NCBI RefSeq assembly: GCF_004349105.1
Contig: NZ_SMLB01000001.1
Coordinates: forward strand, 186,001 to 250,000
Length of the DNA stretch: 64,000 bases
Direction of reading: 5' to 3'
Source of the DNA: Jiangella aurantiaca
GTDB taxonomy: Bacteria; Actinomycetota; Actinomycetes; Jiangellales; Jiangellaceae
Under the pieces are notes generated by a model. That model saw only the letters and a list, made by a program, of their open reading frames with translations. It did no database searches and was not told the DNA's origin. The position numbers and the translations under genes were made by a program. Positions 10,301 through 51,580 of the stretch are shown piece by piece (positions within the stretch are counted from its first letter, which is position 1; each line of letters starts with the position of its first letter).

Positions 10301-12203
10301 CGGCATCGGCGACATGTCCGGCGACGTGTTCGGCAACGGCATGCTGCTGTCCGAGCACATCAAGCTGGTGGCCGCGTTCGACCACCGGCACATCTTCCTC
10401 GACCCCGACCCCGACCCCGCGGAGTCCTACGCCGAGCGCCGTCGCCTCTTCGAGCTGCCGCGGTCGAGCTGGAACGACTACGAGCCCAAGCTGATCAGCG
10501 AGGGCGGCGGCGTGTATCCGCGCACCGCCAAGACGATCAAGCTGTCGGCCGAAGCGAAGCTGGCGCTGGGCATCGACCCGTCGGTCGAGACCATGACGCC
10601 GCCGGAGCTGATGCACGCGATCCTCGGCGCCCCCGTCGACCTGCTGTGGAACGGCGGCATCGGCACCTACGTCAAGGCGTCGACGGAGTCGCACGGCGAG
10701 GTGGGCGACAAGGCCAACGACGCCATCCGCATCGATGCCGGCGACCTGCGCTGCCGGGTGGTCGGTGAAGGTGGCAACCTCGGCCTCACCCAGCGCGGCC
10801 GCATCGAGTTCGCCCAGGCCGGCGGCCGGGTGAACACCGACGCCATCGACAACTCCGCCGGCGTCGACACCTCCGACCACGAGGTCAACATCAAGATCCT
10901 GCTCGACGGCATCGTGCGGGCCGGCGACCTCACCGAGAAGCAGCGCAACGAGCTGCTGGCCGAGATGACTGACGAGATCGCCGAGCTGGTGCTGGCGCAC
11001 AACTACGGGCAGAACATCGCGCTGGCCAACGGCGTCCACCAGGCGGCGAACCTGGCCCACGTCCACCGGTCCTACCTCGCCAAGCTGGAGGGCCAAGGCA
11101 AGCTCGACCGCGCGCTGGAGGCGCTGCCGACGGACCGGCAGCTGGCCGAGCGGATGGCCGCCGGTAAGGGGCTGACCAGCCCGGAGCTGTCCGTCGTGCT
11201 CGCCTACACGAAGAACCTCATGTACGAAGAGCTGCTGGCCAGCGCCATGCCCGACGACCCGTACCTCGGCGCCGCGCTGCACGCGTACTTCCCGAGTGCG
11301 CTGCGCGACCGCTACGGCGAGGCCATCGACGACCACCCGCTGCGCCGCGAGATCATCACGAACGTCGTGGTCAACGAGCTGGTGAACACCGCCGGCACGA
11401 CGTTCGCATACCGGCTGGGCATGGAGACCGGCGGGACGGTCGAGGACCTCGCCCGCGCGCACATCGTCGGCGGCGTGGTCTTCCAGATCCCGGAGCTCAT
11501 GACCGCCATCAAGGAGCTGGACAACGTCGTGCCGTTCGACGTCCAGACCCGCATGCGGCTGGAGGGGCGGACGATCACCGAGCGGGCCACCCGATGGCTC
11601 ACCGTCAACCGCCGGCCACCCATCGACATCGCCTGGCAGATCGGATTCTTCGAGGAGCCGATCGCCCGGCTGCTGGTGGCGCTGCCCGACGTCCTGTCCG
11701 GCCGCGAGCTCGACCTCTACCACGAGCGGCTGCAGTCGCTGACGTCCGACGGCGTGCCGGAGCCGCTGGCCAACCGGGTGGCCGTGCTGCCGCCGGCCTA
11801 CGCCGGGCTCGGCATGGTCGAGAACTCGCTGGCCACCGGCACCGACCTGCTCGAGGTCGCCCGGGTGCACTTCACTCTGGGCGCGTTCCTCGAGCTGGGC
11901 CGGCTGCTGGAGCGGATCATCTCGCTGCCGCGGCGCGACCGCTGGCAGACGATGGCCCGCGCCGCCCTTCGCGACGACCTCCACGCCGTGCAGGCGGCGC
12001 TGACCGCGCAGGTCATCCAGCACACGCACGAGGAGGCCGCTCCGCAGGACCGGGTCGAGGCCTGGGCGGCGCAGGACGAGGTCGTCGTCGCCCGGACCCA
12101 GGGCATGCTCCGCGAGATCGTCGAGGGCGACAGCTTCGACCTCGCCCGGTTGTCGGTCGGCCTCCGCGCCGTCCGCGGCCTGCTCCGCCCCGACGCGACG
12201 TAG
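7326..12203 (+). CDS. gdh: NAD-specific glutamate dehydrogenase, large (~180 kDa) type
   Basis: A 1,625-residue enzyme that interconverts glutamate with 2-oxoglutarate and ammonium using NAD. The length is that of the very large L_180 class known from Streptomyces clavuligerus and mycobacteria. The N-terminal half carries ACT-like regulatory segments (TIVEVVIDDMPFLVDSVTMAL near residue 95, and ELFQIPVEELLPTALAVVHLQERR near 380). The catalytic core lies at about 800-1150: KAQAVKNSVIVPVGAKGGFVGK with the reactive Lys, VVAADKGTAAFSDIAN, the GDMSGDVFGNGML nucleotide-binding loop, and LLWNGGIGTYVKAS. ATG 7326 follows a GG-rich spacer and opens MRNRLDEAKSELL. It is monocistronic. The reverse strand is also open over most of this length, but only as a codon-bias shadow. 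Confidence 0.96.
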   Translation: MRNRLDEAKSELLAKAALVGDRGSRDQDEAFLRRYYRHVAAEDLVDRDVVDVYGVAASHRRSAQLRPQGTAVVNVYTPTIDEHGWASGHTIVEVVIDDMPFLVDSVTMALSEHDHTLRLVVHPQLVVRRDITGQLVEVLDLNENDPRRDPDTIVESWMHVEIDRTDDPDDQAAIERMLRDVLRDVREAVEDWPRMRQRAIDIAEELEQPPSSIKSPEAEEARELLRWLADDHFTFLGYREYQLDVVEGEDVLRAVTGTGLGILRSDQDLSGSFGKLPREVRAKAREKQLLILTKANSKATVHRPAYLDYVGVKSFDEAGEVVGERRFLGLFTSAAYTESVLRIPVLRRKVSEVIEQAGFAPSGHSGKDLLRVLETYPRDELFQIPVEELLPTALAVVHLQERRHLRMFIRRDDYGRYLSFLVYLPRDRYNTDVRERIQRLLLAATDGVSIDFTARVGESALARLHFVVRMKRDQGLPEIDVAALEKQLVGATRSWGDELSDALAEQVGEEGAAKLLRRYRQGFPEGYKADFPARTAVADVRRLEELPAANGLGMNLYQPVGGLATDRRFKIYRTGRPISLTQVLPILSRMGVEVVDERPYEIVRRGPDGESTAYIYDFGLRYRGLRATDADRLKVLFQEAFAAVWRGDAESDGFNALVPQAGLSWRQASILRAYAKYLRQTGTTFSQNYLEEALSGHVEVARMLVDLFEIRFDPDRYGDDDTGRAARQSAAEQLTERIGEALDQVASLDQDRILRSFLRLVNATLRTSYYRASVGGPQTVTSFKLDSRSLPDLPDPKPMYEIWVYSPRVEGVHLRFGAVARGGLRWSDRREDFRTEILGLVKAQAVKNSVIVPVGAKGGFVGKLLPDPAVDREAWLAEGVECYKTFIRAILDITDNRAADRSIVPPPKVVRHDGDDPYLVVAADKGTAAFSDIANDVSKEYGFWLGDAFASGGSAGYDHKAMGITARGAWESVRRHFRQLGRDIQAEDFTVVGIGDMSGDVFGNGMLLSEHIKLVAAFDHRHIFLDPDPDPAESYAERRRLFELPRSSWNDYEPKLISEGGGVYPRTAKTIKLSAEAKLALGIDPSVETMTPPELMHAILGAPVDLLWNGGIGTYVKASTESHGEVGDKANDAIRIDAGDLRCRVVGEGGNLGLTQRGRIEFAQAGGRVNTDAIDNSAGVDTSDHEVNIKILLDGIVRAGDLTEKQRNELLAEMTDEIAELVLAHNYGQNIALANGVHQAANLAHVHRSYLAKLEGQGKLDRALEALPTDRQLAERMAAGKGLTSPELSVVLAYTKNLMYEELLASAMPDDPYLGAALHAYFPSALRDRYGEAIDDHPLRREIITNVVVNELVNTAGTTFAYRLGMETGGTVEDLARAHIVGGVVFQIPELMTAIKELDNVVPFDVQTRMRLEGRTITERATRWLTVNRRPPIDIAWQIGFFEEPIARLLVALPDVLSGRELDLYHERLQSLTSDGVPEPLANRVAVLPPAYAGLGMVENSLATGTDLLEVARVHFTLGAFLELGRLLERIISLPRRDRWQTMARAALRDDLHAVQAALTAQVIQHTHEEAAPQDRVEAWAAQDEVVVARTQGMLREIVEGDSFDLARLSVGLRAVRGLLRPDAT

Positions 12204-12263: not shown

Positions 12264-14531
12264 TCAGCGCGCGGGGGCGAGCTCCGGCTCGTCGGCCCGC
12301 CGGCCGGCACCGTCCACGTCGGCCAGGTACACTTCCGGCCGGCCCTCGACGTGCAGTTGCGGCAGCCGGCGCTCCAGCCAGGCCGGCAGCCACCAGTTGG
12401 CCCGGCCGAGCAGGTGCATGACCGCCGGGACGAGCAGCATCCGCACGACGGTGGCGTCGACGAGGATCGCGGCGGCCATGCCGACGCCGATGACCTTGAG
12501 GAACACCTCCGGGCTCGGGATGAACGCCGCGAACACCGCCACCATGATCGCCGCCGCGGCAGTGATGACCCGGCCGGTGCCGGCCAGCCCCTCGACTATG
12601 GCGCGGGCGTTGTCGCCGGTCCGCGTCCACGCCTCGCGCATGCGGCTGATGAGGAACACCTCATAGTCCATCGAGAGCCCGAACAGCACCGCGAAGACCA
12701 GCACGGGGATGAACGCCGGCATCGGCGTCTCGGTGTCGATGCCGATCAGCTGGCCGGCCCAGCCGCCCTCCAGCACCAGCGCGACCACGCCGTAGGCGGC
12801 GGCGACGGAGAGCAGGTTCATCAGCGCGGCGGTGATCGGGATGACGATGCTGCGGAACGACACCAGCAGCAACAGCATCGACAGCGCCACCACGCCGCCG
12901 ATCAGGAGGGGCAGCCGCTCGGCCGTGTTCTCCGTCGAGTCGATGGACGTGGCCGTGACGCCGCCGACGTGCACCTCGACGCCGGCGCCAGGGAGGACGT
13001 CGTCGCGCAGGGCGTGGACGAGGTCCTCGGTGGCGGCGTCCTGCGGGCCGGTCGTCGGCAGGACGGTGAGCAGTGCGGCGTCGCCGGCCTCGTTGACGAC
13101 CGGAGGCATCACGGCGGCGACCCCCGGTGTGGCCGCGACCGCCTCGCCCAGCGCCGGCAGCGCGTCGGCGTCACGCGGCGACTCCAGGTCCGCGACCAGC
13201 AGCAGCGGGCCGTTGGCGCCGGCGCCGAAGCCCTCGGACAGCAGGTCGTAGGCCTGCCGCGACGAGCGGTCCTCCTCGTTGTTGCCCGCGTCGGGGAAGC
13301 CGAACCGGACGCCGAGGAACGGCGCCGCCAGCGCCAGCAGCAACCCGACGCCGACCACCGTCGCGACGATGCTGTGCCGGTCGACCAGCCGGCCCCAGCG
13401 CAGCCAGGTCCGCGACGGCTCGACGTGCCCGCCCGCGGCCAGCTGCGCCGTCCTCCGGCGGCCCAGCGGCAGCCGCAGCCGGTCGACCCACGTCCCGAAG
13501 AAGCCGAGCAGCGCGGGGAACAGCGTCGCGGCCGCCGCCATGACGACGAGGACGGCGACGATCGTCACCAGCGAGGCGCCCTGCATGAACGACAGGCCCA
13601 TGGCGAACAGGCCGAGCATGCTCACCATGACGGTGCTTCCGGCGACCATGACCGCTCGGCCGGCGGTGTCCAGCGTCGCGACGGTGGCCCGCTCGGGGTC
13701 GAGCCCGGCGGCGCGCCACTCGCGGAACCGCGTGACCATGAGCAGCACGTAGTCGATGCCCAGCGCGATGCCCATCATCGTCGCCAGGGCGGTCGACCAG
13801 TCCGGGACGTCGACCACCGCGGCGACGAGCCCGGTGAGCAGGCCGCTGAGCGCCAGCCCGGCGACCGCGACGACGAGCGGCAATCCGGCGGCCACCACCG
13901 TGCCGAACGTGATCAGCAGGATCACCGCGGCGGCCGCCATGCCGATCGCCTCGGAGCCGATCTCGCCCTGCTCGGCAAGCGCGACGGTCTGCCCGCCGAG
14001 AGCGATCTCCAGGCCGGGCCGCTCCGCGGCGTCGGCCAGCGCCATCAGTTCCTCGGTCTCCTCGACCGGCATGTCGTCGGGCAGGACGACGTCGAGGTTG
14101 ACGGTCGCGACGAGGATGTCGCCGTCCTCGCTGATGCCGCCCGGCGTCGTGTACGGGTCGTCGACGGTGACGACGTGCGGCTGGGTGCGCAGCTGGTCGA
14201 GCAGCGCGGTCACGTCGGCCTGGACCGCGGGGTCGGCGACCCCGCCCTCAGCGCGCACGACGACGTCGATGGTGTCGCCGGACTGCGCCGGGAAGCGCTC
14301 TTCCAGCAGGTCCTGCGCCTGACGCGAGTCGGAGCCCGGCGCGGAGTAGTCGGCGGTGAAGTCACCGGAGAAGGCCGCCGACAGCCCGAACGCGGCCGCG
14401 ATGGCCAGTACCCAGGCGGCGACCACGCGGCCGCGGCGGCGATAGGAGGCGCCGGCCAGCCGGCCGAGCACGCCAGGTCGTGGGAGAGCGGCGGCGGTCC
14501 GCTCTCCGTCGGTGGTCGTGGACTCGTTCAT
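12264..14531 (-). CDS. MMPL/RND family transporter
   Basis: A 755-residue inner-membrane exporter of the MMPL type, driven by the proton gradient and typically moving lipids, siderophores or drugs. The architecture is a duplicated one. A first TM near residue 30 is followed by an extracytoplasmic loop, then five TMs (about 165-345) with the sequence TMMGIALGIDYVLLMVTRFREW. A second loop precedes another TM bundle (about 510-720) with FAVLFGLSMDYEVFLISRMREAW. The paired GxDY/SMDYE motifs carry the proton-relay Asp residues. ATG 14531 has a GAGGGGCAGG site upstream. The gene diverges from a TetR regulator across a palindrome, which suggests substrate-induced export. The substrate cannot be told. 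Confidence 0.93.
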   Translation of the reverse strand: MNESTTTDGERTAAALPRPGVLGRLAGASYRRRGRVVAAWVLAIAAAFGLSAAFSGDFTADYSAPGSDSRQAQDLLEERFPAQSGDTIDVVVRAEGGVADPAVQADVTALLDQLRTQPHVVTVDDPYTTPGGISEDGDILVATVNLDVVLPDDMPVEETEELMALADAAERPGLEIALGGQTVALAEQGEIGSEAIGMAAAAVILLITFGTVVAAGLPLVVAVAGLALSGLLTGLVAAVVDVPDWSTALATMMGIALGIDYVLLMVTRFREWRAAGLDPERATVATLDTAGRAVMVAGSTVMVSMLGLFAMGLSFMQGASLVTIVAVLVVMAAAATLFPALLGFFGTWVDRLRLPLGRRRTAQLAAGGHVEPSRTWLRWGRLVDRHSIVATVVGVGLLLALAAPFLGVRFGFPDAGNNEEDRSSRQAYDLLSEGFGAGANGPLLLVADLESPRDADALPALGEAVAATPGVAAVMPPVVNEAGDAALLTVLPTTGPQDAATEDLVHALRDDVLPGAGVEVHVGGVTATSIDSTENTAERLPLLIGGVVALSMLLLLVSFRSIVIPITAALMNLLSVAAAYGVVALVLEGGWAGQLIGIDTETPMPAFIPVLVFAVLFGLSMDYEVFLISRMREAWTRTGDNARAIVEGLAGTGRVITAAAAIMVAVFAAFIPSPEVFLKVIGVGMAAAILVDATVVRMLLVPAVMHLLGRANWWLPAWLERRLPQLHVEGRPEVYLADVDGAGRRADEPELAPAR

Positions 14532-45183: not shown

Positions 45184-46242
45184 GTGAGCCCACGACGGGT
45201 CACGATGGCCGACGTCGCCAGGCGGGCCGGCGTTTCGCCCACCACGGCCTCGCTGGTCCTGTCCGGGCGAGGGCGTGAGCTGCGGATATCCCAGGCCGTG
45301 GAGCAGCGGGTCCTCGCGGCCGCCGACGAGCTCGAGTACCGCCGGAACATCGTGTCCGTGGGTCTGCGCACCGGCACCACCCGGACCATCGGCTTCGTGT
45401 CCGACACCGTCGCCACGTCGCGGCTGGCCGGCGACATGATCAAGGGGGCGCTCGAGGCCGCACGCGAGCGGGGCGTGATGCTGTTCATCGGTGAGACCGA
45501 GGGCGAGGTCGATCTCGAACGCGGCCTGCTCCAGGCGATGCACGACCGTCAGGTCGACGGCATCATCTTCGCCTCGATGTTCACCCGGACGCTCAAGGTT
45601 CCCCCGGCGCTGACCTCCGGTCCCGCCGTCCTGCTCAACGCCGTCCCCAAGCCGGCGGCCGAACTCCCGTCGGTGGTCCCGGACGAGACGGAGGCGGGCC
45701 GCGCCGCGGCGCGCATCCTGCTCGACGCCGGGCACCGCGACGGCATCCACACCATCGGCGCCGGGCCGCGGGTCCGCGACGTGCCACCCGGGGCCCTGGC
45801 GGGCGTCGAACGCCTCGACGGCATCCGCGAGGTGCTCGCCCAGGCGAAGGTCGAGCTCGCCGGGGGCCGCGTCTGCCCCGACTGGCTGCCCGAGTACGGC
45901 TACGAGGCCACCCGGCACCTCCTCGAGCACGAGCGGCCCCGCGCGCTCATCTGCCTCAACGACCGGATCGCCCTCGGCGCCTACCAGGCGCTCGACGACT
46001 ACGCGCTGAAGGTGCCCACGGACGTGTCCGTGGTCTCGTTCGACGATCACCCGATCGCCACCTGGATCCGCCCCAAGCTGACCACGGTCGCGCTCCCGCA
46101 CTATGAGCTCGGCCGGAAGGCGGTCGACGTGCTCTTCGGTGTCATCGAGCGGCATCGGGACGGGGCGGCCGCGGGCCGCGAGAGTCATCGCGTGTCCATG
46201 CCGGTGCGGATCCGCGAATCCGTCGCGACGCCCGGGGCCTGA
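45184..46242 (+). CDS. LacI family transcriptional regulator (GH68/esterase regulon)
   Basis: A 352-residue repressor with the HTH VTMADVARRAGVSPTTASLVLSGRGRELRIS at the N-terminus (a variant where the hinge is followed by RNIVSVGLRTG). The effector-binding domain includes GFVSDTVATSRLAGDMIKGALEAA and the segment DVSVVSFDDHPIATWIRPKLTTV. GTG 45184 has a GGAGG site eight bases upstream; the frame is open further back without a site. It sits between two copies of its presumed operator, so it probably controls the ABC/GH68 operon to its left and the esterase pair to its right. Confidence 0.92.
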   Translation: MSPRRVTMADVARRAGVSPTTASLVLSGRGRELRISQAVEQRVLAAADELEYRRNIVSVGLRTGTTRTIGFVSDTVATSRLAGDMIKGALEAARERGVMLFIGETEGEVDLERGLLQAMHDRQVDGIIFASMFTRTLKVPPALTSGPAVLLNAVPKPAAELPSVVPDETEAGRAAARILLDAGHRDGIHTIGAGPRVRDVPPGALAGVERLDGIREVLAQAKVELAGGRVCPDWLPEYGYEATRHLLEHERPRALICLNDRIALGAYQALDDYALKVPTDVSVVSFDDHPIATWIRPKLTTVALPHYELGRKAVDVLFGVIERHRDGAAAGRESHRVSMPVRIRESVATPGA

Positions 46243-46267
46243 CGTCGGCGCTCGGCGCCGGCCGACC

Positions 46268-46318
46268 TTGACAGCGGCGAGGGCGTCGCAGCACACTACC
46301 GAGCTAATCCGATTTAGC
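46268..46318 (+). promoter_or_regulatory. Esterase promoter with LacI-family operator, copy 2
   Basis: TTGACA (46268-46273) is followed by CACACT (46292-46297) with an 18-bp spacer. GCTAATCCGATTTAGC (46303-46318) lies just downstream, over the likely start point; it is the exact reverse complement of the site at 45095. A short GC hairpin (GTCGGC 46244-46249 / GCCGAC 46261-46266) before the -35 may end the LacI transcript. Confidence 0.7.
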
Positions 46319-46384
46319 AGCGGATCTCACTACGTCTCGGAACCTCGCACCACGCGCAACGTCGCCCGACTGGACGGAGGTCCC

Positions 46385-47680
46385 ATGATCACTCGCCGCC
46401 TCGCCGGCGCCGCCTTGGTCGTCGCCGCACTGGCCGGCACCTCGGCCACGCCGGTCTCGGCCGCCCAGCCGCCCGCCGGTCTTCCGCAGCAGGGCATTCA
46501 GAGCGTCACGGCGATCACGCAGGTCCACACCTACGGCCAGAAGGTCGACGCCGTCGCCGTCGAGTACTCGGCGCCGGTGAACCCGCGGGAGCTGGACCTC
46601 GACACGTTCACCGTGTCCGACAGCATCTACAACTTCCGCTACAACCCGATCGACGATCTCGGCGTCCGCGCCGACCGGACCATCACCCGGGTGTACACGA
46701 ACGACATGATCGCGCTGAACCCGTACGGCCGGTCGACGCCGGGCCGCTACGTGATCGTCGAGCTCGCGCCCACGGACGCCGGCGGCAACACCGTCATCGC
46801 AGAGGGGCGCTACGTGAAGGTCAACCCCGACCAGCCGACACAGGTCATGCAGAACGAGGACGTGTACGCGCGCCCCGGCGGCGGGATCGGCCGGGGGAGA
46901 GTGCTGTCCGAGGCGTCGTCGACGGCGCATGCACTGACCGGCCAGTCCGTCGATCTCCTGGTCGACGACTTCGCGTACGAGACGTTCGTGCAGGGCGGCA
47001 CGGTGCTCCCGTACGCCTACCACCTGCCCGACGACTACCACCCGCAGCGTGACTACCCGCTTGTCGTGATCCTGCCCGGCCACGGGATGGGGTGGAACGG
47101 CACCAACACCGGTGTCCAGGTCGCCGCCGACATCCCGGCGACCGCCTGGCTGCAGCCCGAGTGGACCGGCGCCGGCGAGGACGTCATCGTCCTAGCACCG
47201 CAGAACCAGCGGGTCGGCGCCGCGGCCGAGGCGGCGCTCATGGTCGCACTCGTCGAGAACTTCATGGGCCGCTTCAGCGTCGATTCCGAGCGCGTCTACG
47301 CCTCGACGGTGTCCTACGGCTCCACCCTCGCCTGGCAGACGCTGGCCACCGAGCCCGGCCAGTTCACCGCCGTGCTGCTCACCGGGGGATTCCGGGTCAG
47401 CGCCGACCAGGCGGCTCGGATCGCCGCCCACCCGACGCCCATCTGGATCACGCACGGCACCAACGACCACCTCCTCCCGGTGGCGTTCGCCCGCGACTCG
47501 GCCGTTCTGCTGCGCGACGCGTACGTGGCCGCCGGCGTCGCCCCCTCCGTAGCGGCCGACATCATCCGCTACACCGAATACGGCAACAACGCGTTCACCG
47601 AGCCGGACTACCACGCCGCCTACGGACCGACGTACGAGGATGCGTCGATCCTCCGGTGGCTGCTGGCCCAGGAGGGATGA
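46385..47680 (+). CDS. Secreted alpha/beta hydrolase esterase with Ig-like N-domain, paralog 1
   Basis: A 431-residue exported esterase-like protein. The signal is MITRRLAGAALVVAALAGTS, cut near VSA. Residues about 35-165 form the Ig-like domain seen in EstA-type esterases (VTAITQVHTYGQKVDAVAVEYSAPVNPRELDLDTFTVSD). The hydrolase domain follows: YPLVVILPGHGMGWNG, the nucleophile region VYASTVSYGSTLAWQ with Ser310, the Asp in THGTNDHLLP and the His in PDYHAAYGPTYED. The elbow is TVSYG, not the usual GxSxG; the first Gly is replaced by Thr. ATG 46385 has a GGAGG site. Together with its paralog it forms a LacI-controlled operon. Confidence 0.83.
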   Translation: MITRRLAGAALVVAALAGTSATPVSAAQPPAGLPQQGIQSVTAITQVHTYGQKVDAVAVEYSAPVNPRELDLDTFTVSDSIYNFRYNPIDDLGVRADRTITRVYTNDMIALNPYGRSTPGRYVIVELAPTDAGGNTVIAEGRYVKVNPDQPTQVMQNEDVYARPGGGIGRGRVLSEASSTAHALTGQSVDLLVDDFAYETFVQGGTVLPYAYHLPDDYHPQRDYPLVVILPGHGMGWNGTNTGVQVAADIPATAWLQPEWTGAGEDVIVLAPQNQRVGAAAEAALMVALVENFMGRFSVDSERVYASTVSYGSTLAWQTLATEPGQFTAVLLTGGFRVSADQAARIAAHPTPIWITHGTNDHLLPVAFARDSAVLLRDAYVAAGVAPSVAADIIRYTEYGNNAFTEPDYHAAYGPTYEDASILRWLLAQEG

Positions 47681-48996
47681 CCGTGTGCATCCGCCGGCTC
47701 GCCCTCGCGATCGCGACGGCCGCCGTACTCGCGGCGACCCCGTCCGCAGTCGCCTCGGCGGCGGACCCGACGCATGACCGCCCCGGCCGCGGCATCCAGG
47801 GCGCCACCGCGATCACGGAGGTCTACACCTTCGGCCAGAAGGTGGCCGCCGTCGCCGTCGAGTACGCCGCTCCCGTCAACCCGCGGACGCTCGACCTGGA
47901 CACCTTCACCGTCTCGGACAGTCCGTACAACTTCCGCTTCGACCCGCTGGAGGACCTGCAGAGGCGCGAAGACCGGACCGTCACCCGGATCTACACCAAC
48001 GACGCGCCCGCGCTCGATCCCGGCGGTGTCTCGGAGCACGGGCGCTACGTCATCGTCGAGCTCGACCCGGGCGACCGCGGCGGCAACACCGTCATCAGGT
48101 CGACCTGCTCCGGCTTCCTCTGCTACGAGAAGATCAACACCGACCTCCCGGCCGAGGTGGTGCAGAACGAGGACGTCTACGCCGCCTATGGGCGGCCGGG
48201 CGCCGGCCACGGCCGTGGACCGCTGCTCGGCGCCGGCGGCCCCACCCGGTACGGGCTCACCGGCGATCCGGTGAACCTGCTCGCCGACGACTTCCATCAC
48301 GAGAGCCACCTCCACTCCGGCACGGTGCTGCCGTACGCCTTCCACCTGCCGGCCGACTACGACCCGGCCCGCGACTATCCGCTGGTAGTGGTACTGCCCG
48401 GCTGGGGCTCCGGGTACAACGGGGAGAATCGCGGTGTGCAGGTCGCGGTCGACATCTCGGCGACGGCCTGGCTTCAACCGGAGTGGACCGGCACGGACGA
48501 GGACGTCATCGTGCTCACGCCGCAGAACCCACGCGTGAGCACCGACGCCCAGTCCGCCGCCGTGGTGGCGCTGGTCCGCTCATTCATGGAGCAGTACAGC
48601 GTCGACACCGAACGCGTCTACGTCCAGGGCTTCTCCATGGGCACCGCCCTGGCCTACGACGCCATGGCCGACCATCCGGGCCTGTTCGCCGGCGCGCTGA
48701 TCACCGCCGGCTTCGGTGTCAGCCCCGACCAGGCGGCGCGGATCGCCATGGCCCGCACCCCGATCTGGATCACCCATGGCACCAGCGACCCGGTGCTGCC
48801 GGTCGCGAACGGCCGCACCTCGACGCAGCGGCTGCGCAGCGCCTATGTCGCCGCCGGCGCCGAGCCCGCCGAAGCGGAGAACCTGATCCGCTACACGGAG
48901 TTCCCGGACGAGGCCTACAGCCTGCCGGACTACCACGCCGTGGTCGGACCCACGTACGAAGATCCGTCGATCCTCCGGTGGCTCCTGCAACAGTAG
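47677..48996 (+). CDS. Secreted alpha/beta hydrolase esterase with Ig-like N-domain, paralog 2
   Basis: A 439-residue paralog of the preceding protein, with the same layout. The signal is MTVCIRRLALAIATAAVLAAT, followed by the Ig-like domain (ATAITEVYTFGQKVAAVAVEYAAPVNPRTLDLD) and the hydrolase domain with YPLVVVLPGWGSGYNG. The nucleophile elbow is GFSMGTALAYD, with Ser320 in a normal GxSxG-like turn (the Gly after Ser+2 is kept). Asp is in THGTSDPVLPV and His in PDYHAVVGPTYED. An extra cysteine pair (CSGFLC) is inserted near residue 145. ATG 47677 overlaps the first gene's stop. An acetyl- or feruloyl-sugar ester is a reasonable guess for the substrate given the neighbouring sugar importer. 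Confidence 0.85.
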   Translation: MTVCIRRLALAIATAAVLAATPSAVASAADPTHDRPGRGIQGATAITEVYTFGQKVAAVAVEYAAPVNPRTLDLDTFTVSDSPYNFRFDPLEDLQRREDRTVTRIYTNDAPALDPGGVSEHGRYVIVELDPGDRGGNTVIRSTCSGFLCYEKINTDLPAEVVQNEDVYAAYGRPGAGHGRGPLLGAGGPTRYGLTGDPVNLLADDFHHESHLHSGTVLPYAFHLPADYDPARDYPLVVVLPGWGSGYNGENRGVQVAVDISATAWLQPEWTGTDEDVIVLTPQNPRVSTDAQSAAVVALVRSFMEQYSVDTERVYVQGFSMGTALAYDAMADHPGLFAGALITAGFGVSPDQAARIAMARTPIWITHGTSDPVLPVANGRTSTQRLRSAYVAAGAEPAEAENLIRYTEFPDEAYSLPDYHAVVGPTYEDPSILRWLLQQ

Positions 48997-49096: not shown

Positions 49097-49747
49097 ACCC
49101 CCATCCTGTTCTTGTCCGGTGCCGGCCTCCGCACGTGGATCTGGGACGACGTACGCGCCGCGCTCGAGGTCGAGACCCGCGTCGCAGGCCGCCCCGGTGC
49201 CGACGCCGGGCTTGACGAGTACGCCGACGCGGCTCTGCGGACCGCTGAAGGGTGGGCGTCCTTCCGGGTCGTCGCGCACTCGATCGGCGGCGTGGTCGCC
49301 TCGGCGCTGGTGGCGCGCGCGCCCGAACGTGTCTCCGGCGTCGTCGCGGTGTGCGCGTCGGTGCCTGAGGTGGGCTCTTCGTTCATCGGAGCGCTCCCAG
49401 TGCCCCAGCGCTACGTGATGGGGCTGGTGACACGGGTGCTCGGCACGCGTCCGCCCGACTCGGCGATTCGCAAGGGCCTCGCGGCCCGCCTCGAACCGGA
49501 GCTCGCCTCGCGGATCGTGGCCGACTTCGCGCCGGAGTCGAAGGCGCTGTACCGTGATCGGGTCCCGGAGCGACGCTTTCCCGCGAGCTCGACCTACATC
49601 CTCACTGAGAGGGACAGCGAGTACCCGGCCGCGCTCCAGGAGCGCTACGCCGCCCGGCTGGGTGGCGACGTGGTCCGGCTCGCGACCGGGCACCTTCCGA
49701 TGCTGGAGGATCCGGCCCGGCTGACCGAGGTGATCGGTCGCCAGTGA
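49094..49747 (+). CDS. Alpha/beta hydrolase
   Basis: A 217-residue cytoplasmic hydrolase of the small alpha/beta fold. The oxyanion strand is ILFLSGAGLRTWIWDDV, the nucleophile elbow VVAHSIGGVVAS (Ser in HSIGG), the acid probably in TERDSEYPAALQERYA and the catalytic His in LATGHLPMLEDPARL. It is the length of minimal esterase/thioesterase-like members. Transcription is separate from the esterase operon upstream; the start is the leaderless GTG. The substrate is unknown. Confidence 0.82.
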   Translation: MTPILFLSGAGLRTWIWDDVRAALEVETRVAGRPGADAGLDEYADAALRTAEGWASFRVVAHSIGGVVASALVARAPERVSGVVAVCASVPEVGSSFIGALPVPQRYVMGLVTRVLGTRPPDSAIRKGLAARLEPELASRIVADFAPESKALYRDRVPERRFPASSTYILTERDSEYPAALQERYAARLGGDVVRLATGHLPMLEDPARLTEVIGRQ

Positions 49748-49863
49748 TGACCGGGTCAGGTGCCGGCCAGCCGGCGTCCTCTGGGCATGCCCGCGTTGTG
49801 GGCACCGTCGCTGCGGCCCTGCGTCCAGGCTAGGCGCGGAGCGTCGGCACGTGTTCTGGCCAA

Positions 49864-49885
49864 TATCCAGAATTCTGGATAGTAT
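49864..49885 (+). promoter_or_regulatory. Perfect 18-bp palindromic operator and leaderless promoter of the yhf operon
   Basis: TATCCAGAATTCTGGATA (49864-49881) is a perfect palindrome. It overlaps the -10 hexamer TAGTAT (49880-49885), which lies six bases before the yhfZ ATG at 49892, so the transcript should be leaderless. A half-site-like TTCTGG also occurs just before it (49854-49859). A dimeric YhfZ bound here would shut the promoter off. Confidence 0.75.
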
Positions 49886-49891
49886 GCCCGC

Positions 49892-50806
49892 ATGTCGCGC
49901 ATCCAGATGCTCATGTCGAAGGCCGGGGCCGTCGCCCACCTCCTGGCCGTCGAGCTATCCGCGGCATCTGCAGGCGACCGTATGGCCACGGTTCAGGAAC
50001 TCAGCGAGCGGTACGAGGTCGGCAAGGGCACCGTCCAGGCGGCGTTGGCGCTGCTCGAGGAGGCCGGCGCGGTCGAGATCCGGGCGCGCGGCAAGCTGGG
50101 CACCTTCGTCGCGGCCATCGATCACGGGTTGATCTGGGAGTTCGCCGGCGGTCGGTCGATCTCGATCGCCATGCCGCTGCCGTACTCGCGTCGCTATGAA
50201 GGCCTCGCGACAGGGATCCACGCGGCGTTCCAACACGCTGGCGTGCCGCTGACGTTGATGTTCGTGCGCGGAGCGGCCGACCGCATGCGGGCACTGCGTG
50301 AGGAGCGGGCCGACTTCGCCGTGATGTCGCGGTTCGCGGCGCTGTCCGATCCGGAGCTGGACATCGTCCGCGACTTCGGCCCTCACTCCTACGTCGGCGC
50401 ACATGGCCTGGTGGTCGCCGAGGGGCGGGCGCCGGACGATCCGCAGCTGCGGGTCGCCGTCGACCCGGCGTCGGTCGACCAGGCAGAGCTGACCGCGGCC
50501 GTGTTCCCCGACCTTCCGCCGCAGCGGCGGGTCGAAGTGTCCTACAACCAGCTGAACAGGTACTTCGCCGACGGGCTCGTCGACGCCACGGTGTGGAACC
50601 TCGACGAGATCGACGCTCACATCTCCAGTCCGGTCACGGTCCATCCGGTCGAGGGGCTCGAGGACGATGCAACCACCTCGGCCGTCATCGTCGCGCGCCG
50701 GGACGCCGAAGCGGTGCCCACCGCGGTCGGGGCCGCGCTCGGGGACGACGTCGTCAGGACGGCGGCGGACGACGTCGTGGCCGGCCGGCTGATCCCCACG
50801 TACTGA
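49892..50806 (+). CDS. yhfZ: YhfZ-type GntR-like regulator
   Basis: A 304-residue regulator. The N-terminal winged helix (about 10-75) reads MATVQELSERYEVGKGTVQAALALLEEAGAVEI. The remaining 220 residues look like a periplasmic-binding-type effector domain (RSISIAMPLPYSRRYEGLATGIHAAF, DFAVMSRFAAL, EVSYNQLNRYFADGLVDATVWNLDEI). This two-domain order is that of YhfZ, the regulator of the E. coli yhf/php locus. The ATG is six bases after a -10 hexamer that overlaps an 18-bp palindrome, so it most likely represses its own operon and responds to a small ligand. It is first in an eight-gene set. Confidence 0.88.
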   Translation: MSRIQMLMSKAGAVAHLLAVELSAASAGDRMATVQELSERYEVGKGTVQAALALLEEAGAVEIRARGKLGTFVAAIDHGLIWEFAGGRSISIAMPLPYSRRYEGLATGIHAAFQHAGVPLTLMFVRGAADRMRALREERADFAVMSRFAALSDPELDIVRDFGPHSYVGAHGLVVAEGRAPDDPQLRVAVDPASVDQAELTAAVFPDLPPQRRVEVSYNQLNRYFADGLVDATVWNLDEIDAHISSPVTVHPVEGLEDDATTSAVIVARRDAEAVPTAVGAALGDDVVRTAADDVVAGRLIPTY

Positions 50807-50834: not shown

Positions 50835-51215
50835 ATGGACGACCGACTCCGCCTGCGCCTCGGCATGTTCGGTGAGATGGCGCAGACCCCGCCGGGTGTC
50901 GTCGAGTTCGTGGCGAGCGAGCTCGCCCTGCTCGAGCCGGATTTCGAGGTCACCGACGACACCGCGGGGTCGCTGACCTCGCATCTGGTCGCCGCGCTGG
51001 GGCGGATGGTGCGGGGCGAGCCGGACATCGACCCGCCGGCCGACCTGGTTTACCAGCAGGTCGTGAATGAGGTTCCGGCCGCCGTGGACGCCGCCGCGCG
51101 GGTGTCCGACCGTGCGGAATCCGCGCTCGGCGTTCCGCTCTCCGCCGTCGAACGGCAGTACCTCAGCCTCCATCTCGGCGTCCTGGCGCTGACCGCAACC
51201 AAGGAGAACCGATGA
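50835..51215 (+). CDS. yhfY: YhfY-like PRD domain protein
   Basis: A 126-residue protein consisting of one PTS-regulation-type (PRD) domain, as in E. coli YhfY. It is helical, with GVVEFVASELALLEP and the C-terminal VERQYLSLHLGVLALTAT, where the His of SLHL matches the usual phospho-acceptor position of PRDs. No PTS enzymes are encoded nearby. It begins 28 bp after yhfZ with a moderate GGAG site. Its role in the locus is unknown; it could sense or modulate YhfZ or YhfT. Confidence 0.8.
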   Translation: MDDRLRLRLGMFGEMAQTPPGVVEFVASELALLEPDFEVTDDTAGSLTSHLVAALGRMVRGEPDIDPPADLVYQQVVNEVPAAVDAAARVSDRAESALGVPLSAVERQYLSLHLGVLALTATKENR

Positions 51216-51580
51216 AGATCATCGCTGGTGGAGTCGCGAAGACCGAGGTCGCGGAGGTCCTGCGACCACTGCTCCGCCCCGGCGACACCGTCGTCGTGGG
51301 CACGGACATGGACGCGGCCGTCCAACTGCGCTCCGGTGAGGCGGACTACTACCTCGGGACGTGCCACACTGGCGCCGGCGCGAGCCTCGGCGTGCTCGTG
51401 GGCCTGCTCGGTTCGGACAAGACGCACACGTTCGGCCGGTCGCTCCCGTCCGTGGAGACGATCCAGGCCGCTGTCGACGAGGGCAACCTCGCCTTCGGGT
51501 TCTCCCTGGATCAGGCGCAGGAGGTCGTGCCGGCGCTGTGGGCAGCGCTCGACGAAAGACGGCAGAGGGCAGACTCATGA
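51212..51580 (+). CDS. yhfU: YhfU-like DUF2620 protein
   Basis: A 122-residue small soluble protein, MKIIAGGVAKTEVAEVLRPLLRPGD, of the DUF2620 family (YhfU in E. coli). The conserved core is ADYYLGTCHTGAGASLGVLVGLLG, a glycine/threonine-rich loop that could bind phosphate or a nucleotide, followed by a Rossmann-like alternation. It is linked by ATGA-type overlaps to yhfY before it and yhfT after it. No function has been assigned to this family; coupling with the membrane protein YhfT suggests a complex. Confidence 0.85.
   Translation: MKIIAGGVAKTEVAEVLRPLLRPGDTVVVGTDMDAAVQLRSGEADYYLGTCHTGAGASLGVLVGLLGSDKTHTFGRSLPSVETIQAAVDEGNLAFGFSLDQAQEVVPALWAALDERRQRADS

Follow-up and report, generated by a model that had tools for sequence, protein, structure and literature searches.

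How is the yhf operon of Jiangella aurantiaca controlled, and by which protein? The window (the whole 64,000-nucleotide stretch that was analysed) holds all eight yhf gene families in the order Z-Y-U-T-V-S-X-W. The E. coli K-12 annotation names YhfZ as a putative regulator; we found no substrate for the yhf pathway, and know of none, nor of any job for E. coli YhfZ. A sequence-only reading of the window had pointed to a perfect 18-bp palindrome over a leaderless promoter at the head of this operon and had taken it for an operator. The analysis presented here suggests that the palindrome is the core of a YhfZ operator, that a YhfZ dimer bound there represses its own operon and that a ligand releases it, a reading to which we give a probability of about 0.85. 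It is built on sequence, conservation, spacing, confinement to the locus, co-occurrence with yhfZ and the fold class of the protein, and from these we infer binding by YhfZ, repression, the start site and induction.

All the genes of the operon lie on the forward strand, and yhfZ stands first, as had been claimed. The yhfZ gene (49892..50806) encodes a protein of 304 aa, a predicted autorepressor with a winged helix and a ligand-binding-type domain, and both family profiles match above their cut-offs, PF14502 (HTH_41) at 5e-16 and PF14503 (YhfZ_C) at 1.4e-52. Seven yhf families follow it: a yhfY-like PRD domain protein (50835..51215), yhfU (DUF2620, by profile match, 51212..51580), the function-unassigned yhfT (PF10797, 51577..52971, its start inferred from an ATGA overlap), php/yhfV of the phosphotriesterase family (PF02126, 52971..53909, start inferred), the PLP enzyme yhfS (PF22475 and PF00266, 53906..55030), the alanine-racemase-like PLP enzyme yhfX (PF21279 and PF01168, 55030..56193, start inferred) and the phosphopentomutase-like metalloenzyme yhfW (PF01676, 56190..57488). 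Among the 41 loci described below, complete operons were checked in the window, in L016 and L021 and in 14 Streptomyces-type stretches, and the same gene order was found in each. Two tandem, similar ORFs at 46103-48996 of the window appear, when read by eye, to encode related secreted hydrolases.

At E 0.001, YhfZ alone among the eight operon products matches a DNA-binding Pfam family; its winged-helix N-terminus is also matched by PF00392. The predicted model of YhfZ has a mean pLDDT of 76.7 and places the recognition helix at residues 45-57 within the winged helix. The Shigella YhfZ structure 2OZZ is matched both in sequence (1.4e-24) and in structure comparison (Z 18.8 over 197 residues, 4.1 Å), and the next matches of the C-terminal domain in the model comparison are MetQ-type and other amino-acid-binding proteins and the effector domains of LysR proteins. 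The nearest named relatives of the protein belong to Jiangella (91-96% identical), followed by those of Aeromicrobium (76-80%) and of Cellulomonas and the Streptomyces-type genomes (43-47%). Regulators of the FadR, HutC and DasR types are autorepressing members of the GntR superfamily, and YhfZ resembles them in its winged-helix N-terminus (PF00392) and in the inverted repeat in its own promoter. It differs from them in having HTH_41 and YhfZ_C domains, with an effector domain like those of LysR and MetQ. The classical GntR operator is of the GT...AC type, a palindrome with GT and AC half-sites, and the site ahead of yhfZ is not, its core reading CCAG-N4-CTGG by inspection against that consensus. 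Autorepression through a dyad that overlaps the promoter is ordinary in kind.

The palindrome itself, TATCCAGAATTCTGGATA, is present at 49864-49881 of the window and is its own reverse complement. Could it have arisen by chance? In 60 Markov-1 simulations of the window, which has 70.6% G+C, perfect palindromes of at least 18 bp occurred with a mean of 1.0 per simulated window, and at least one was found in 45 of the 60 runs. About one such palindrome is thus expected per 64-kb window, so that the palindrome by itself proves nothing, and its rarity was dropped as evidence. This expectation is the one point in favour of a chance feature. Against it, a counterpart stands at equal spacing in 41 loci, and we regard a chance origin as practically excluded. 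The element is real: its conservation at a fixed place exceeds what chance would give.

The 41 loci come from a sample of 46 actinobacterial YhfZ-family genes and comprise 6 Jiangella, 4 Aeromicrobium, 1 Cellulomonas and 30 Streptomyces-type main copies, the last under a genus label that is presumptive. Left out of the set and viewed separately were the actinobacterial YhfZ-family loci L070, L071, L072, L064 and L058, together with L078 from a Microbacterium plasmid. Duplicate rows were dropped (L015 equals L008, L020 equals L003 and L001 equals L007), and matches that fell short of the PF14503 cut-off, L010-L014, L024 and L025 among them, were not counted as YhfZ. When the palindrome was looked for ahead of yhfZ orthologs, an equal element at equal spacing was found for 41 of the 46 genes, and in these 41 loci a conserved inverted repeat lies over the regulator's own promoter. 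Mismatches to the window's 18-mer number 0-4 in 41 of 42 rows (one genome counted twice) and 6 in L047, and the runner-up in each stretch is 5-9 mismatches away. Among 22 loci with YhfZ proteins less than 90% identical, information averages 1.87 bits over the 24 site columns and 0.13 in the upstream flank, the sites having been picked as best-scoring, which inflates the value. In the window and in the 6.62-Mb genome, TATCCAGAATTCTGGATA is the sole match with at most 3 mismatches.

Column conservation extends the element to an operator dyad of 22 bp, AATATCCA-GAATTC-TGGATAGT, at 49862..49883 on the forward strand. The full unit is a dyad of 22-24 bp with arms of 8-9 bp, AATATCCA and TGGATATT, separated by N6, and the window dyad has 13/14 matches to the general form AATATNCA-N6-TGNATATT and 7/8 arm pairs. 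The 18-bp element of the earlier claim behaves like an operator that is conserved, specific to the locus and placed in the promoter, but the unit is longer than 18 bp. Perfection of the repeat is inessential: it holds in the window, whereas the number of pairs within the 18-mer ranges from 5 to 9 of 9 across the 41 loci. In the 22 loci the same range has a mean of 6.6, with control 18-mers mostly at 1-4, and in the Streptomyces-type loci the right arm departs from perfect symmetry (5-8 of 9 pairs). The dyad in general is looser, and its perfect version is that of Jiangella.

The promoter overlaps this dyad. The -10-like TAGTAT lies at 49880..49885 and the -35-like TGGCCA at 49857..49862, 17 bases ahead of it and matching TTGACA at 4/6, both on the forward strand. 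The bases GCCCGC (49886-49891) separate the -10 from the ATG of yhfZ at 49892. The overlap of two bases (TA) between the palindrome and the -10, and the ATG six bases on, were both read in the sequence as described; the two-base figure applies to the 18-mer, but the -10 is largely inside the longer right arm. A simple promoter scan of 49300-50300 scored no sigma-70-type site because both the -35 (TGGCCA) and the -10 are degenerate.

Might the conserved sequence be a constitutive promoter and nothing else, made up of a -35, a spacer and a -10? In favour of this, the -10 has the form TA...T in all 41 loci, and a -35 matching 4 or 5 of 6 positions stands 16-18 bases before it in 36 of them. The -35 matches 3 of 6 in the other 5, and 25 of the 30 Streptomyces-type loci have TTGNCA there. 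Conservation is not expected in the spacers of ordinary promoters, and yet AATATCCAGAAT shows strong conservation across the 22 diverse loci. A second copy of the site provides a further argument. Found in 25 of the 30 Streptomyces-type loci (L002, L027, L029 and 22 others), it starts 42-197 bases past the yhfZ stop and ahead of yhfY, and is absent from the other 5 and from all 11 loci of the other genera. In the second copy the dyad is retained, with TTACTGT or a similar sequence as part of it, although the best -35 there matches only 1-3 of 6 positions in 23 of the 25 cases; the remaining two, in L037 and L048, match at 4/6, equal to the window's own -35. Since the dyad is kept there mostly without a -35, an operator is a better reading than a mere promoter, and we consider a promoter alone very unlikely. 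A loose Shine-Dalgarno-like pattern follows the second copy in 23 of 25. A DNA loop joining the two copies of the Streptomyces-type loci was considered and rejected: they are 1015-1168 bp apart, and these distances do not fall on a shared helical phase (n=25, vector length 0.05), which makes a roadblock, or else repression of a separate promoter, likelier than a loop.

The operator could also belong to another regulator, encoded elsewhere and controlling yhf. Binding by YhfZ is a prediction, and the PRD domain of YhfY could sense the PTS state, both of which leave room for such a regulator. YhfY shows the PRD domain only, with no DNA-binding family at E 0.001, and the distribution of the sites also argues against this explanation. 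In Jiangella, one site was found in each of 6 genomes with yhfZ and in 0 of 6 without it, and a reversed-pattern control gave 1 match (G006) among the 12 genomes. In the Streptomyces-type genomes the site occurs in 27 of 30 with yhfZ and in 1 of 216 without it, the control giving 0 of 246; because the search pattern came from this very genus, the 27 of 30 is partly circular, a reservation that does not touch the 1 of 216. L030, L047 and L052 were missed because their sites have diverged further than the 3 mismatches allowed. Across the scanned genomes, the sites are confined to the yhf locus and co-inherited with yhfZ, with one exception, and control by a regulator other than YhfZ is accordingly improbable. 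The exception is an operator-like sequence in G739 (L061:8006), a genome with no yhfZ match; no yhf gene was found in an 18-kb stretch there.

A wider regulon in the organism's own genome was considered and set aside. With the general dyad at up to 3 mismatches, the yhf site (1 mismatch) was recovered, and so were three weaker places, of which two overlap; the reversed control gave 1 hit. The weaker places lie near ArsR-like and LacI-type genes, as judged from ORFs read by eye. The overlapping pair (L080:1501-1522 and 16 bases upstream, contig C23) is near the ArsR-like gene and is possibly another regulator's operator.

The start of yhfZ has the features of a leaderless gene. A TANNNT about 12 bp ahead of the start codon has been published as the mark of such genes (PMC3160421). 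Such a TANNNT precedes yhfZ by 12 bp in the window, where no in-frame start lies upstream. Across the 41 loci the distance is 12 bp in 13 cases, 13 bp in 27 and 14 bp in 1, which places the start codon 6, 7 or 8 bases past the -10, respectively. The TAG at 49880, within the -10, is in frame, so yhfZ cannot begin upstream of it, and in 11 of the 41 loci an earlier start is ruled out by an in-frame stop no more than 18 bases upstream. The leaderless-type start that had been claimed is thereby strengthened, and leaderless initiation is predicted to be conserved along with the site across the 41 loci. The resemblance to the published leaderless genes of Actinobacteria includes the TANNNT 12-14 bp ahead and the lack of room for a Shine-Dalgarno leader (PMC3160421); at yhfZ the -10 differs in doubling as part of the operator.

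How would such an operator work? A YhfZ dimer would bind the 22-24-bp dyad with its 6-bp spacer. The dyad fills the 17-bp promoter spacer and most of the -10, and bound YhfZ would thus exclude RNA polymerase and keep yhfZ and the other seven genes of the operon repressed. Transcription is predicted to start at the yhfZ start codon or immediately beside it. An RNA hairpin or attenuator was ruled out, as the predicted transcript begins only downstream of the dyad. YhfZ may be released from the DNA by a small ligand, perhaps amino-acid- or phosphonate-like, bound in its C-terminal domain, which resembles periplasmic binding proteins. It can be asked instead whether YhfZ binds the dyad and activates transcription, since its C-terminal domain resembles the LysR effector domains and amino-acid-binding proteins and many LysR proteins are activators. 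However, the dyad covers the spacer and the -10 at a normal spacing of 17-18 bp, where a bound dimer would block the polymerase. Activation of the MerR type goes with long promoter spacers of 19-20 bp, and these are absent. Activation is therefore unlikely, and repression by YhfZ remains the preferred reading.

Does the site extend beyond the Actinobacteria? The E. coli yhf operon is like that of the window in having the eight gene families with yhfZ first and in carrying dyads of the 8-6-8 form, three in number, between genes. It differs in gene order (yhfZ-yhfY-yhfX-yhfW-php-yhfU-yhfT-yhfS), in the half-site (TTCA in place of the TCCA of the window group) and in the placement of the dyads, with a tandem pair ahead of yhfZ and a third ahead of yhfX, as against the single one before yhfZ in the window. 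In the 20-kb yhf stretch of E. coli K-12, exactly three sites have at least 10/14 matches and 7/8 pairs. These TTCA-N6-TGAA dyads (L026:12374-12395, 12350-12371 and 11008-11029) are candidate YhfZ operators, all intergenic within the operon, and the nearer yhfZ site ends 4 bases ahead of the ATG. Six control stretches of 50 kb from the same chromosome gave 2 such sites in 300 kb; at 13/14 matches and 7/8 pairs, two of the three operon sites are retained and none in the controls. The match score alone (at least 12/14, pairs ignored) gave 3 in the 300-kb controls versus 2 in 20 kb. Six other E. coli strains have the same arms as K-12 at the outer yhfZ site and at the yhfX site, the differences falling in the 6-bp spacer; the inner yhfZ site is over the threshold in only 2 of the 6. 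This comparison is weakened because the N was put into the pattern after E. coli had been viewed. The same site probably recurs in variant form in E. coli. Whether YhfZ proteins across phyla share the code AATATNCA-N6-TGNATATT (N being C in the window), with E. coli YhfZ controlling its own operon through the three sites (N being T), is an evenly balanced question.

It was also considered whether N follows the first residue of the recognition helix, which is K or N in the TCCA loci, V in E. coli, A in G012 and Q in G221. The variable base is A in 16 of the 25 second Streptomyces-type copies, which are served by the same YhfZ, and this makes a simple residue-to-base code doubtful. No site was found upstream of the divergent genes of G012, G221 and G554 or of the second YhfZ copies in G573 and G708, and no full yhf operon was found beside these five genes (G554 being on a 4.8-kb contig). 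The second copy of G573 has the same GNGTVQ recognition helix though it is without a site. In G012, CAATAATCA-N6-TGATTATTG lies ahead of the gene after yhfZ, where a near-perfect 24-bp dyad, CAATAATCAGAAATCTGATTATTG, is placed directly 5' of the small ORF following the divergent yhfZ (L070:3707-3730). A variant dyad, CAATATACA-N6-TGTAGATTG, lies near the divergent yhfZ of G221 (L071:12314-12337), flanked by an aldo-keto-reductase-like gene and by a cluster of PTS-IIB-like and phosphotriesterase-family genes (names partly by eye). The dyad search gave no good site at G554, at the second copies of G573 and G708 or in Vibrio, where Vibrio halioticoli has a weak one (11/14, 4/8 pairs). Cetobacterium has 11/14 with 7/8 pairs ahead of yhfZ, and an equally good site within the yhfZ gene indicates that chance matches are frequent in that A+T-rich DNA. 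The yhf operon on the Cetobacterium somerae plasmid (L077) is in the actinobacterial order with an added amidase-family gene.

Among the literature matches listed, from a search that most subscription papers lay outside, no YhfZ operator is described, and nothing was found there that joins a leaderless start with GntR autoregulation and an operator. A ChIP-exo study, reportedly of 40 uncharacterised factors (PMC8464067), was not among the yhfZ matches. The value of the finding is a concrete candidate operator for the orphan YhfZ family of regulators, together with predicted sites in laboratory E. coli. With an operator defined, binding can be assayed, a reporter built and ligands screened, and a compound that lifts repression from the dyad would point to the substrate of the yhf pathway.
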